From Streptomyces sp. YS415 (GTDB taxonomy: Bacteria; Actinomycetota; Actinomycetes; Streptomycetales; Streptomycetaceae): DNA of 64,000 nt. The stretch is from assembly GCF_023544665.1 (NCBI RefSeq), contig NZ_JAMJFL010000005.1, positions 186,001 through 250,000 on the forward strand, read 5' to 3'. Shown here piece by piece: positions 16,676 to 19,963 of this stretch; position 1 is the first letter of the stretch; the number at the start of each line of letters is the position of its first letter. The position numbers and the translations under genes are program-made. The notes below the pieces were generated by a model. That model was given only the letters and a program-made list of their open reading frames with translations. It made no database searches and was not told the origin of the DNA.

Positions 16676-18292
16676 TCAGCCCTTGCTCACCGCCGTCAGG
16701 ATCTCCGGGAGTCTCGCCGCCGTCCGCGGCGCGGCCAGCCGTAGGCCCAGTGCCGCGATCCCCGCCCCGTAGGCCGCCCCGACCGGCAGCAGCAGCCAGG
16801 TCAGGTTCTCGCCGTCCGCCGACACGTTCAGCCAGATCGTCAGGGCGATGTGGGGCGCGCAGAGCAGTGCCGCCGCGACCATCCCGCCGAAGATCGAGAT
16901 CCAGGCCAGCCCCACCTGCCCCGGGGCCACGTTCTTGTAGCCCTCCTGCGGAATCGAGTACGGGAAGCGGGCCGAGGTCCAGGCGCCGGTCGCCAGCATC
17001 GCGCCGAGCAGGGCGAAGGACAGGCCCAGCGCCTCGGGCAGCCGGGTCCAGTCGCCCAGCAGGGCGGCCGTCAGGACGGTCACCAGCGTGGCGTACGGCA
17101 GGGTGATCAGCAGCAGCGTGCAGGCACGCGCGCGGAGCTCGACGTAGGCGTCCCGGGGCGACGAGATGGTCAGCGCGACCATCCAGAAGGCCGAGGTGTC
17201 CTGGCCGAACTGGTTGTACATCAGGATCCCGAGCATCCCGGCCGCGAAGCAGGCGAAGTAGATCGAGCCGGTGCCCTGGACGGCGTTGAACACCGGCACG
17301 ATCAGGCCGATGGCGAGCGAGGTCACCCAGGCCGCCTTGGTCTTCGGATCCCGCCACATGTACCGCAGGCCGCGCTCCATGACCGTCCCGGTGCGCCCGG
17401 CGGGCAGCAGCCTGGCCAGGCCCGCGGACTGCCGTACGGCCGTCTCGCCGGCCGTGGGCAGGGTCGAGCCGTCCGGTTCGGTCATCAAGCGGGTCAGATG
17501 CCGGGACCATACGGCGATCAGGGCCGCCAGCGCCGCCGCCGCCAGGCCCAGTTGCAGCAGCGCGACACCGTAGGAACCCTCGCTCGCCGCGTCCACCGCG
17601 CCGATCGCCGACGCCGGCGGGAGCCAGCGCACCAGGTCGGCCGCCGGGTCGAGCTCCCCGAGCCCGGAGGAACCCAGGCGCTGGGCGCCGAAGTTGACGG
17701 CCTGTGCGCCGACCGCGATGACCAGACCGCTCAGGACCGCCAGATCTCGGCCCTTCCGGCTGGTCAGCAGGCGGATGTTGGCGGCGGCGACGGCCCGCGC
17801 GAGGGCCACGCACACCAGCAGCGCCAGGACGGCCCCGACGACGCCCACCACGTACGCCAGGACGCCGTGCGCGACCGCGATCACCGAGCCGGCCAGCAGG
17901 CAGAGGGTGAACAGCGGGCCGATGCCGACCAGGGAGGCCGTGAGGAGGGCGCGCACCAGGGCGCGGGGGCGCAGCGGGAGCATGACCAGGCGGGTCGGAT
18001 CGAGGGTCTCGTCGCCGCCGGGGAAGAACAGCGGCATCACGGCCCAGCCCAGTGCCAGCACCGCCACCAGCAGGACGGCCAGGGACGCGGCGTGCGCGTG
18101 GCCGCGCAGGGCGATCAGGCCGATCAGCTGCAGCGCGGCGAACAGCAGCGTGACGACGACGGAGGCGACGTAGGCGGCGCGACGGCCGCTGGACTGGCGC
18201 AGGCCGTTGCGCAGCAGCGACAGCTTCAGCCGCACGAAGACGGAGGTGACGGAGGCGGCCGGCGCGGCCGGGGCGGTCGTGGGCGCGCTCAT
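16676..18292 (-). CDS. ABC transporter permease (exporter type)
   Basis: 538 residues from ATG at 18292, overlapping the ATPase stop (ATGA). Many hydrophobic segments alternate through the length (for example VASVVVTLLFAALQLIGLIAL, then AVLLVAVLALGWAVM, then VVGVVGAVLALLVCVALA), roughly 10-12 membrane spans with a soluble linker near residue 300 (MTEPDGSTLPTAGETAV). It forms the membrane channel for the ATPase encoded immediately upstream. No binding protein is encoded nearby, consistent with export. Substrate unknown. Confidence 0.82.
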   Translation of the reverse strand: MSAPTTAPAAPAASVTSVFVRLKLSLLRNGLRQSSGRRAAYVASVVVTLLFAALQLIGLIALRGHAHAASLAVLLVAVLALGWAVMPLFFPGGDETLDPTRLVMLPLRPRALVRALLTASLVGIGPLFTLCLLAGSVIAVAHGVLAYVVGVVGAVLALLVCVALARAVAAANIRLLTSRKGRDLAVLSGLVIAVGAQAVNFGAQRLGSSGLGELDPAADLVRWLPPASAIGAVDAASEGSYGVALLQLGLAAAALAALIAVWSRHLTRLMTEPDGSTLPTAGETAVRQSAGLARLLPAGRTGTVMERGLRYMWRDPKTKAAWVTSLAIGLIVPVFNAVQGTGSIYFACFAAGMLGILMYNQFGQDTSAFWMVALTISSPRDAYVELRARACTLLLITLPYATLVTVLTAALLGDWTRLPEALGLSFALLGAMLATGAWTSARFPYSIPQEGYKNVAPGQVGLAWISIFGGMVAAALLCAPHIALTIWLNVSADGENLTWLLLPVGAAYGAGIAALGLRLAAPRTAARLPEILTAVSKG

Positions 18293-19059
18293 CGGGCCCC
18301 GCCGCCCAGCCAGTCGAGGTCGGACCCGGTGTCGCGCGCCTGGGCGCCGACCAGTTCCAGGAACGCCCGCTGGAGGGAGGGCGCGTCCCCGCGGACCTCG
18401 GCGAGGGTGCCGTGCGCCCGGATGCGGCCCGCCGCCATGACGGCCACCCAGTCGCACAGCGACTCGACGAGCTCCATGACGTGGGAGGAGAAGACCACGG
18501 TGGCGCCGGAGGCGGTGTAGCGCTCCAGGACGCCCCGGATGGTCTGTGCGGAGACCGGGTCGACGCCCTCGAACGGCTCGTCCAGGAAGAGCACTTCGGG
18601 GTTGTGGAGGAGAGCGGCGGCGAGCCCGATCTTCTTGCGCATGCCGGTCGAGTAGTCGACGACGAGCTTGTGCTGGGCGCCGGCCAGGTCCAGCACGTCG
18701 AGGAGCTGCGTGGCCCGCTTGTCGACCTCGGCGCCGGGCAGGCCCCGCAACCGGCCGGAGTAGGCGAGCAGTTCGCGCCCCGACAGCCGTTCGAACAGCC
18801 GCAGCCCTTCCGGCAGTACCCCGATCCGTGCCTTCACCGCCACCGGGTCCCGCCACACGTCGTGCCCGCCGACCTCGACGGATCCCTGATCGGGCCGCAG
18901 CAGGCCGGTCACCATGGAGAGCGTGGTGGTCTTCCCGGCCCCGTTCGGCCCGACCAGCCCGATGAACTTCCCGGCGGGCAGTTCCAGATCGATCCCCGCG
19001 ACGGCGACTTGCTGCCCGAACCGCTTCCAGAGCCCCCGCACCACCACAGCTGACGTCAT
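18289..19059 (-). CDS. ABC transporter ATP-binding protein
   Basis: 256 residues. Walker A GPNGAGKTTT near residue 37, a Q-loop region, an ABC signature written STGMRKK near 140, Walker B VLFLDEPFEGVD near 160, and H-loop SSHVMELVE near 195. STGM in place of SGGQ is common in CcmA/NatA-like exporters. It energises the permease encoded just downstream in a translationally coupled pair. The gene begins 25 bp from the MITE-like element at 19085. Confidence 0.9.
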   Translation of the reverse strand: MTSAVVVRGLWKRFGQQVAVAGIDLELPAGKFIGLVGPNGAGKTTTLSMVTGLLRPDQGSVEVGGHDVWRDPVAVKARIGVLPEGLRLFERLSGRELLAYSGRLRGLPGAEVDKRATQLLDVLDLAGAQHKLVVDYSTGMRKKIGLAAALLHNPEVLFLDEPFEGVDPVSAQTIRGVLERYTASGATVVFSSHVMELVESLCDWVAVMAAGRIRAHGTLAEVRGDAPSLQRAFLELVGAQARDTGSDLDWLGGGAR

Positions 19060-19084
19060 GCCCGAACCCTACGGCGCAGGCTTA

Positions 19085-19286
19085 GGCCCTGTCGTTTGGA
19101 TCACCCCGGCGTCGCGGGCCCTGGCACGCACTCCCCCAGAGGGGGGACCCCCAGCCGCGTTGTCGTCGGTTGCCGACGCTCCGCGTCGACGCCCTCCTCC
19201 GCCTTGCAGCTGCACGCACCAGACCCCGCTCGGGTCGACCGAGAGAAGCCGCATCTCATAGCCGGGCTGATCCAAACGACAGGGCC
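19085..19286. mobile_element. 202-bp MITE-like element with perfect terminal inverted repeats and TA duplication
   Basis: GGCCCTGTCGTTTGGATCA at 19085-19103 is repeated in perfect inverse at 19268-19286. The flanking TA dinucleotides (19083-19084 and 19287-19288) look like a 2-bp target duplication, as made by IS630-type and some IS5-type (IS427 group) transposases. The interior has no transposase, only a short unsupported frame, and carries a small palindrome (CCCCCAGAGGGGGG). It is therefore a non-autonomous element needing a transposase in trans. It lies in the gap between the ABC ATPase and the prim-pol gene. Confidence 0.8.
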
Positions 19287-19945
19287 TAACGGTCCCGCCC
19301 GCAGGCGTAGGCGAGGGGGGAGATCAACTCCTCGGCGTCCGGCAGCCAGCGGTTGGCGGGGGTGGGGCGGCAGGCCCACTGCACGGCGCCCCGGGAGCCG
19401 AACCGGGTCGGCGGAGCGGCCACCCAGCTGCCCTCGCCGAGCGGGTGGAGATCGAGCGAGGACGGCGACCAGCCGAGCTTGCGCACCAGGTCGGGGACCT
19501 TCGCCCCGGCTCCCGGCAGCACGAAGAAGTGCATCCGGCGGTCCGGCGCCAGGGTCACGGGGCCGAGCGTGAGCTCCATGCGCTCCATGCGGGCCAGCGC
19601 GAGGAACCCGGCCGTCTCCGGCACCGAGATCGCGTCGAAGGTACGCCCGGTGGGCAGCAGGATCGACGCCAGCGGCTGCTTGGACCACATCCGGCGGGCG
19701 ACCGTCGCACTCCCCGTGGCCTGCGTCCCCCAGTCCGCGCGCGCGGGATGCGCCCCCGGCGCATCGCACGAGGCGTCGCCGCACGAGCAGCGCTGCATCC
19801 CGTCGACGGCTTCCAGCCAGGTGCCGGGAAACACGTCCCAGTGGCGCTCCTCGGCGTAGCGAACGGCGGTCTCCAGCAGCGATTCCCCGCGCTGCTTCGG
19901 AATCTGAGCGGCTTCAGTGCCCGCGATCGTCTCTTCCACGCACAT
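19286..19945 (-). CDS. Prim-pol (bifunctional primase/polymerase) N-domain protein
   Basis: ATG at 19945, 5 bp after GGGAG, gives 219 residues; an upstream ATG at 19963 would add MGAGVV. The cysteine-rich segment CSCGDASCDAPGAHPARADW (near residue 52), then LASILLPTGRTFDAISVPE and HFFVLPGAGAKVPDL, match the small Streptomyces proteins annotated as bifunctional DNA primase/polymerase. The catalytic acidic motif DxD is not obvious, so activity is doubtful. The stop TAG is formed at the junction of the MITE-like element: TA from the target site, G from the element. Confidence 0.75.
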   Translation of the reverse strand: MCVEETIAGTEAAQIPKQRGESLLETAVRYAEERHWDVFPGTWLEAVDGMQRCSCGDASCDAPGAHPARADWGTQATGSATVARRMWSKQPLASILLPTGRTFDAISVPETAGFLALARMERMELTLGPVTLAPDRRMHFFVLPGAGAKVPDLVRKLGWSPSSLDLHPLGEGSWVAAPPTRFGSRGAVQWACRPTPANRWLPDAEELISPLAYACGRDR

Positions 19946-19963
19946 CACAACTCCCGCACCCAC

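Follow-up and report, generated by a model that had tools for sequence, protein, structure and literature searches.

How can a transposable element land in the last codon of a gene and leave the protein as it was, and is such an insertion a fortunate single event or something that its family does by rule? The window analysed here, a stretch of 64,000 nucleotides from Streptomyces sp. YS415, raises this question with a mobile DNA element of 202 bp (positions 19085–19286), flanked by TA on both sides, that supplies the final base of the stop codon of a minus-strand gene for a Prim-Pol domain protein (19286–19963; Pfam PF09250, E 1.2e-23). We consider it probable that this is a non-autonomous IS5-type MITE that inserts at YTAR, that the surviving copies of its family gather in stop codons, and that its interior is a conserved folded core.

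The Element and Its Insertion in the Prim-Pol Gene

The element is bounded by terminal inverted repeats of 19 perfect bp (19085–19103, plus strand, and 19268–19286, minus strand), which extend to 26 bp with one mismatch, reaching 19110 on the left and 19261 inward on the right. A repeat finder reports 29-nt arms (19082–19110 and 19261–19289) that are 97% complementary and consist of the 19 perfect bp, seven more with one mismatched, and the flanking TTA/TAA. Based on the flanks, ...GCTTA on the left and TAACGG on the right, the target was TTAA and only its TA was duplicated (19083–19084 and 19287–19288). The 4-bp target duplication of the E. coli IS5 type is absent: the left side reads TTAG, the right CTAA, and TA alone is repeated. 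A transposase gene is excluded by the 202-bp length alone. Being shorter than 500 bp, without a transposase gene, and having inverted ends, a target duplication and dispersed copies, the element is supported as a prokaryotic MITE. The preliminary description, which had called it MITE-like and had noted the 19-bp perfect repeats with TA on both sides, is confirmed in each of these points.

The prim-pol gene ends CGT-TAG, its stop codon (19286–19288, minus strand) being composed of the flanking TA and the G that is the first base of the element end; taking out the element and one TA by eye gives CGT-TAA. The protein was matched in 40 of 41 genomes, own included, and its C-terminus, ...YACGRDR, is as in relatives. 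Because 12 of 23 same-genus orthologues (L367–L389) end in ...GRDR and have their stop codon, be it TAG, TAA or TGA, at this position, the insertion is predicted to have left the protein unchanged, a conclusion that this comparison supports and that agrees with the earlier claim that only the stop was altered, from TAA to TAG. Ten of the remaining 11 orthologues have different C-termini, and one (L378) was misread by the script. A comparison with relatives lacking the insertion had also been proposed; it succeeded in part, in that 12 of the 23 loci share the stop codon and paired element ends are missing behind the prim-pol gene in all 23 same-genus loci, while the exact pre-insertion junction could not be demonstrated, the relatives being too distant for base-by-base reading of an empty site. 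A loose one-sided end pattern found 170–192 nt downstream in L372, L374 and L381 is unpaired and was rejected as an element.

The silence of the insertion holds for the protein only. Downstream lies a gene for an ABC transporter ATP-binding protein (18289–19059, minus strand; gene call and domain match), with a TAGGGT box (19066–19071) located 6 nt before its ATG and separated by 11 nt from the TA of the insertion site upstream. The box is retained and the sequence upstream of it is now the element, so the ABC gene promoter may have been altered by the insertion; the promoter role of TAGGGT is inferred, and a consensus promoter scan at the ABC-gene locus detected no promoter. A script for the spacer between the two genes found no ABC start in four of 13 loci and was clearly wrong in L370, L372 and L381, which left six usable. 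The box was afterwards sought directly in relatives, where TAGGGT precedes an ATG in 5 of 12 and TAGGTT in two more.

Copies across Streptomyces

The 19-bp ends had been suggested as a means of finding sister copies, and many were found in Streptomyces. The genome of strain YS415 itself has a second copy of 187 bp, 85% identical, as well as fragments, and the element is matched in 154 of 199 Streptomyces genomes, own included (E ≤ 0.001), in some of them through the core alone; this survey scored four candidates per genome, so copy numbers are lower bounds. The whole element folds with z-scores of −8.85 (minus strand) and −6.84 (plus strand), and in each case none of 200 shuffles was as good. 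Together with the second copy and the matches across the genus, these scores exclude a chance origin.

The exact TA plus 19-bp end occurs in 109 stretches of genome contigs, all from Streptomyces, with a second end 47–315 bp away in 84 of them; the others have an unpaired end or border on the edge of a contig or stretch. One further end pair spans 1427 bp and has an IS5-type transposase remnant at one end. The commonest element length is 188 bp including both TAs (41 of 85 elements), and longer Streptomyces copies also exist that carry a C/G-rich hairpin module, located at 19131–19154 in the window copy and missing from the shorter form. In the alignment, 18 columns of this optional module are filled by the window copy alone, the other 57 rows having been preselected for short length. 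Among the Streptomyces copies (alignment A1, near columns 105 and 126), GGGAG..GGCGAC and GGGCG..GGCAAC change together, an observation made by eye and uncounted that divides them into two sub-lineages.

Target Choice and Stop-Codon Placement

After removal of one duplicate, the insertion set comprises 205 distinct sites, of which 132 have TA on both sides and 73 lack it on at least one. CTAG accounts for 103 of the 132 TA-flanked targets and YTAR for 122; TTAA, the target of the window copy, is rare (six). A gene-like frame is closed exactly at TA+G in 89 of 117 evaluable YTAR insertions; in the background, from which element junctions were not removed, the figure is 135 of 458 YTAR sites. 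The excess cannot be produced by gene truncation, because an in-frame TAR at a YTAR target is already a stop. Frames are closed on both sides at eight insertions of the 205-site set, which is expected because convergent genes can share one CTAG.

The copies that have the end type of the window copy are placed similarly: 46 of 61 evaluable copies lie in a stop, 15 are intergenic, and none is inside a gene. These 61 are drawn from 85 copies, the gene calls were trained on codon usage (84% coding), and the background for this comparison excludes element junctions. At CTAG the copies divide into 42 in stops and nine intergenic, compared with 36 and 77 (plus 18 inside genes) for background CTAG sites, an odds ratio of about 10 (p 1.3e-9) that ranges from 8.2 to 10.0 across four gene-calling thresholds. 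All seven copies at CTAG that are shorter than 150 bp, a length that cannot hold the full element, are likewise in stops, so it is the ends and the target, and not the core, that determine placement. Stop-codon placement is a family rule set by ends and target, not a lucky single event. The suggestion that the insertion is tolerated because it is silent therefore needs to be divided: at the family level it stands, as stops are over-represented and gene interiors absent, and as an account of one fortunate event it does not, the ABC promoter also being possibly affected.

Smaller samples extend these counts. In RefSeq-annotated plasmid copies the element end coincides with the annotated stop in three of five cases (fabG, an amino acid racemase and a carboxypeptidase), and in the other two the upstream stop is 80–87 bp away; six copies had been picked of 30 records, one of them unannotated. 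The annotated fabG carrying the element at its stop lies between polyketide genes. Outside Streptomyces, a gene-like frame closes on at least one side in five of 12 loci, a small sample.

As to mechanism, an IS5-family transposase acting in trans on matched ends would insert the element at YTAR, mainly CTAG, with duplication of the TA; the ends, target and duplication are observed, and the acting transposase and its action in trans are inferred. Each end begins, in the inward direction, with G, so an insertion into a TAA or TAG stop at its TA restores TAG, and where convergent genes share one CTAG it does so on both sides; this restoration can be read directly from the junctions. In these GC-rich genomes most CTAG sites are outside gene interiors, and loss of harmful insertions would leave survivors in stops. 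Here the distribution is observed and selection is inferred. Selection, with interiors and promoters not tolerating insertion, is by inference the simplest reason for the placement; a true targeting preference is not excluded.

The alternative is active targeting, in which transposition is directed to gene ends (melted or terminator-like DNA at stops would be one such target) and the pattern is not due to filtering by selection. We regard this as rather doubtful. The absence of all 61 copies from gene interiors speaks for it, as does the finding that copies with perfect ends, presumably young, are already in stops in 18 of 22 cases, compared with 28 of 39 copies whose ends are imperfect. With stops and convergent spacers taken as the only safe CTAG sites, stops also exceed convergent spacers slightly more among copies (42:2) than in the background (36:10), a difference that rests on small numbers and is untested statistically. 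However, no consensus extends beyond YTAR except a GC-rich position −4, explicable by codon third positions, and the 15 intergenic copies include six in tandem, four in convergent and four in divergent spacers. Selection and targeting are not separated by these data, and some targeting remains possible.

IS5-Type Relatives and Variation of Ends

The ends fit the frame GGxxxTGTCNNNNGGATCA or come near it, and in IS5-type relatives a DUF4096 transposase lies alongside; in Streptomyces plasmids, genes beside such ends carry the annotation 'IS5 family transposase'. A 47-residue transposase stretch matches NCBIfam NF033580, below the whole-protein cut-off of that model, and Pfam DUF4096 is above cut-off in L396, L191 and L224. 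The IS ends nearest to those of the window copy (17/19) belong to L255, an IS of about 0.9 kb flanked by CTA/TAG whose ends, GGCCGTTTCGTTTGGATCA and GGCAGTTTCGTTTGGATCA, have two and three differences from the window copy, and a relic, L224, differs from the window-copy ends at one position (18/19). L396 is IS-like (1351 bp) and encodes DUF4096 in interrupted transposase frames, with a left end that over 24 nt is identical to the ends of type-B elements, L024 among them. In L191 (867–2430, genome G151), matched TA-flanked ends 1564 bp apart enclose a DUF4096 transposase and a separate frame of about 160 aa, possibly a passenger gene; this element shares 20 nt with element L349.

The ends had also been suggested as a lead to the autonomous parent; IS5-type elements with near-identical ends were recovered, but no exact parent. 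Two pattern searches of 392 genomes for an end plus transposase start yielded no IS ending in exactly GGCCCTGTCGTTTGGATCA; each design hit one genome of 392, the hits being one relic and one type-B element, and the first allowed a leader too short for some IS5 groups. None of the five DUF4096 matches in the genome of strain YS415 has a close end match, the nearest having four mismatches (L160) and no TA flanks. A parent search by DUF4096 in 17 genomes, in which loci were unoriented and most ends unrecognised, gave the partial leads L191, L168 and L192.

End types vary among core-bearing elements, for which an end pair was obtained at 121 of 131 loci. The same 4-base type is present in both arms of 87 of 104 usable elements, compared with 25 expected, a count that omits the 27 of 131 loci without an end pair or GATC frame; the mean arm mismatch (of 16) is 0.83 within an element and 3.77 between elements. 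L042 and L467 are core-bearing elements with another end type, GTGTCGTCAAAGT, and likewise close a gene at its stop codon. Comparison of the elements shows that the core persisted as their termini became matched to those of various IS5-type elements.

A Conserved Folded Core

The interior of the element is better conserved than its ends. The core (19138–19227, minus strand) is matched with 58.5 bits by covariance model R1, in which the window copy was not included, and comprises two helices flanking an asymmetric, purine-rich internal loop, whose 5′ strand (AAGGCGGAGGAGG; 19193–19205, minus strand) and 3′ strand (CGACAACGC; 19157–19165, minus strand) are placed from alignments and sequence. 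The distal helix is a hairpin with a GGA loop (19172–19190, minus strand) in whose stem compensatory changes occur. The preliminary description did not mention this core. A kink-turn reading of the internal loop was set aside, the polarity of the bulge being opposite to that of the kink-turn consensus. No core match was found among the 4227 models of Rfam; each of two scans gave one hit, which falls short of the gathering score and does not lie in the core.

The same fold was obtained for nine of nine cores from eight genera (z −3.6 to −8.0, with at most one of 200 shuffles as good). Because a MAFFT alignment across genera (A2) misaligned the variable hairpins, covariation was counted only on a gap-free alignment (A3) of 23 sequences with a 27-nt interior, which left out 11 of other lengths; a covariance model built on A3 recovers all 11 of the left-out core sequences. 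In A3, 93.7% of 805 cells pair, compared with 78.5% in shuffled alignments and 27.6–44.4% for slid structures. Both sides have changed in 22 of the 35 core pairs, cells with two-sided change number 116 versus 29.8 in shuffles, and the covariation score is 0.460 versus 0.168 shuffled (0 of 500). The shuffle control leaves the relatedness of rows in place.

Two other explanations of these changes were considered. Hairpin-templated repair of imperfect palindromes, acting at the level of mutation, could keep both arms and core strands complementary, and the arms do match within an element and differ between elements. We think this unlikely, as the asymmetric internal loop stays unpaired and near-constant while both adjacent helices change. 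Repair blind to strand also predicts equal numbers of G-T and A-C mispairs, whereas on the modelled strand these number 31 versus 5 cells for those core pairs that are usually Watson-Crick, and 25 versus 9 in the terminal helix. The excess points to RNA, with the qualification that the aligned sequences share ancestry and that this same strand served to derive the structure.

A double-stranded protein-binding site, such as a transposition enhancer or host-factor site with only incidental structure, would fit the motif TGCGTGC, which Streptomyces copies carry in the same orientation on both arms. It would not be expected to produce the two-sided compensation seen in 22 of 35 pairs, and the shortest copies noted above indicate that the core is not needed for placement; we judge it quite unlikely. 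Returning to a conserved fold, we read the interior as a conserved folded core and not as a decayed transposase gene. As the ends explain both movement and harmlessness, the core must be kept for another reason. Its most likely mode of action, by inference, is that of a folded nucleic acid, here probably a minus-strand RNA, which might for example provide a stable 3′ end, or a structure for RNase III-type processing, behind the stop codon. Our best guess, for which there are no transcript data, is an RNA fold that forms the 3′ end of the host message. The orientation to the gene is mixed among the core-bearing stop insertions of the 205-site set (left only in 15, right only in 25 and both in three; n = 43) and lends no support to a role as a stranded RNA.

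The Core beyond Streptomyces

With the core as query, 59 of 296 genomes of the class were matched (18 of them Streptomyces), representing 22 of 114 genera including its own, with scoring limited to three candidates per genome. Apart from Streptomyces, 19 class genomes from eight genera match at E ≤ 1e-5; 22 of the 41 non-Streptomyces class genomes have only weak matches (E 1e-5 to 1e-3). Of the 20 loci fetched, 19 are outside the genus and one (L427) is a weak same-genus copy. The non-Streptomyces elements are about 150–170 bp long and mostly TA-flanked, and their ends are self-matched and unrelated between genera; no end pair was found in L414, which is cut by a contig end, or in L415.

All 19 non-Streptomyces loci share AAGGCGG(A/C)GGA and CGACA(A/C)CGC around the hairpin, whose stem differs in sequence and keeps its complementarity, with at least one broken pair in some. 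A simple cross-pairing test outside Streptomyces gave an outer helix run of 4.8 for own strands versus 2.7 for crossed ones, and 4.4 versus 3.6 for the inner stem. The search key consisted of the loop strands in part outside Streptomyces and entirely for the viral collection, and some of their invariance is accordingly due to ascertainment. Three viral-collection contigs, originally found by exact motif patterns, score 59.3 (L431), 54.5 (L430) and 47.4 bits (L429) with the covariance model. The stretches examined have a GC content of 32.5% in L431 and 39.6% in L429, and the elements in these two, low in GC, combine the same core motif with wholly different long inverted ends. Searches of phages for the element or core, and of plasmids for the low-GC copy, gave no match. 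With strict filters, a phylum-wide search matched 23 of 396 genomes, 11 of them outside the class, the weakest being uncertain. More divergent core-like matches from the same phylum outside the class (L445–L448, L450–L452 and L454), several with a hairpin of the GGAGCGTA type, are possibly a sister group of the core.

The similarity between genera might instead reflect recent spread of an ordinary IS-derived MITE among actinobacteria. Best core-only matches between Streptomyces species do have 90–97% core identity, but outside the genus both helices and ends are rewritten, which recent transfer cannot yield, and we hold this explanation to be very improbable. A broader form of the conserved-core reading makes the core an ancient, mobile module of structured RNA, the counterpart among bacterial DNA transposons of the CORE-SINEs. 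By adapting its terminal repeats to one IS family after another, in Actinomycetota and further afield, it would have survived its carriers, and the Streptomyces copies, parked in stop codons, would form the 3′ end of host messages; this we offer only tentatively, as a possibility short of our expectation.

Comparison with Known Systems

The family represents a near-harmless multicopy parasite whose rare target lies mostly outside gene interiors in GC-rich genomes, often in stops, and whose terminal base restores the stop codon. It is also a non-autonomous element with an interior more conserved than its ends, a reversal of the usual MITE picture, and it provides a testable structured motif without an Rfam entry that is present at gene 3′ ends in many actinobacterial genomes, including those of antibiotic producers. 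Searches of the literature for Streptomyces MITEs, stop-codon insertion and the motifs indicate that the family is undescribed in titles and abstract openings; subscription papers and ISfinder were not covered. There may be a likeness to a Neisseria repeat; literature searches with the literal motif strings, including Neisseria repeat strings, returned unrelated papers only. The CORE-SINEs of eukaryotes likewise retain a conserved central domain, and it is the portion read by their mobilising element that varies; these are retroelements, unlike the DNA-transposon element described here, and serve as an analogy only.

In E. coli IS5, 15 of 24 targets are CTAG (PMC5493358). IS5-family elements resemble the window element in their Py-T-A-Pu target, with CTAG the commonest, in the end frame and, through its IS5-type relatives, in the DUF4096 transposase beside the end; they differ in that IS5 duplicates the tetranucleotide (PMC5493358) and the element, which has no transposase gene, duplicates only the 2-bp TA. 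The QMITE1 and QMITE2 elements of Coxiella are prokaryotic MITEs with a core between terminal inverted repeats, from which small RNAs are made; the text of the review that describes them mentions neither Streptomyces nor a stop codon (PMC10969869).

The 107-bp RUP of pneumococcus, like the window element, has a TA target and ends resembling those of one IS (IS630-Spn1). It differs in that a single IS is named as its mobiliser and that it inserts into IS elements, and neither stop-codon placement nor a cross-genus core is described in the sections available (PMC2229807). The Correia/NEMIS repeats of Neisseria share with the element TA termini and a long hairpin, and RNase III cleavage of their RNA has been proposed; no exchange of ends is described, as far as the same sections extend (PMC2229807). 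An insertion of the enterobacterial RU-1 element, in the portion of the report available, removed the normal stop and changed the end of the protein (PMC2759123), an outcome opposite to that in the prim-pol gene, where the protein is predicted to be unchanged.
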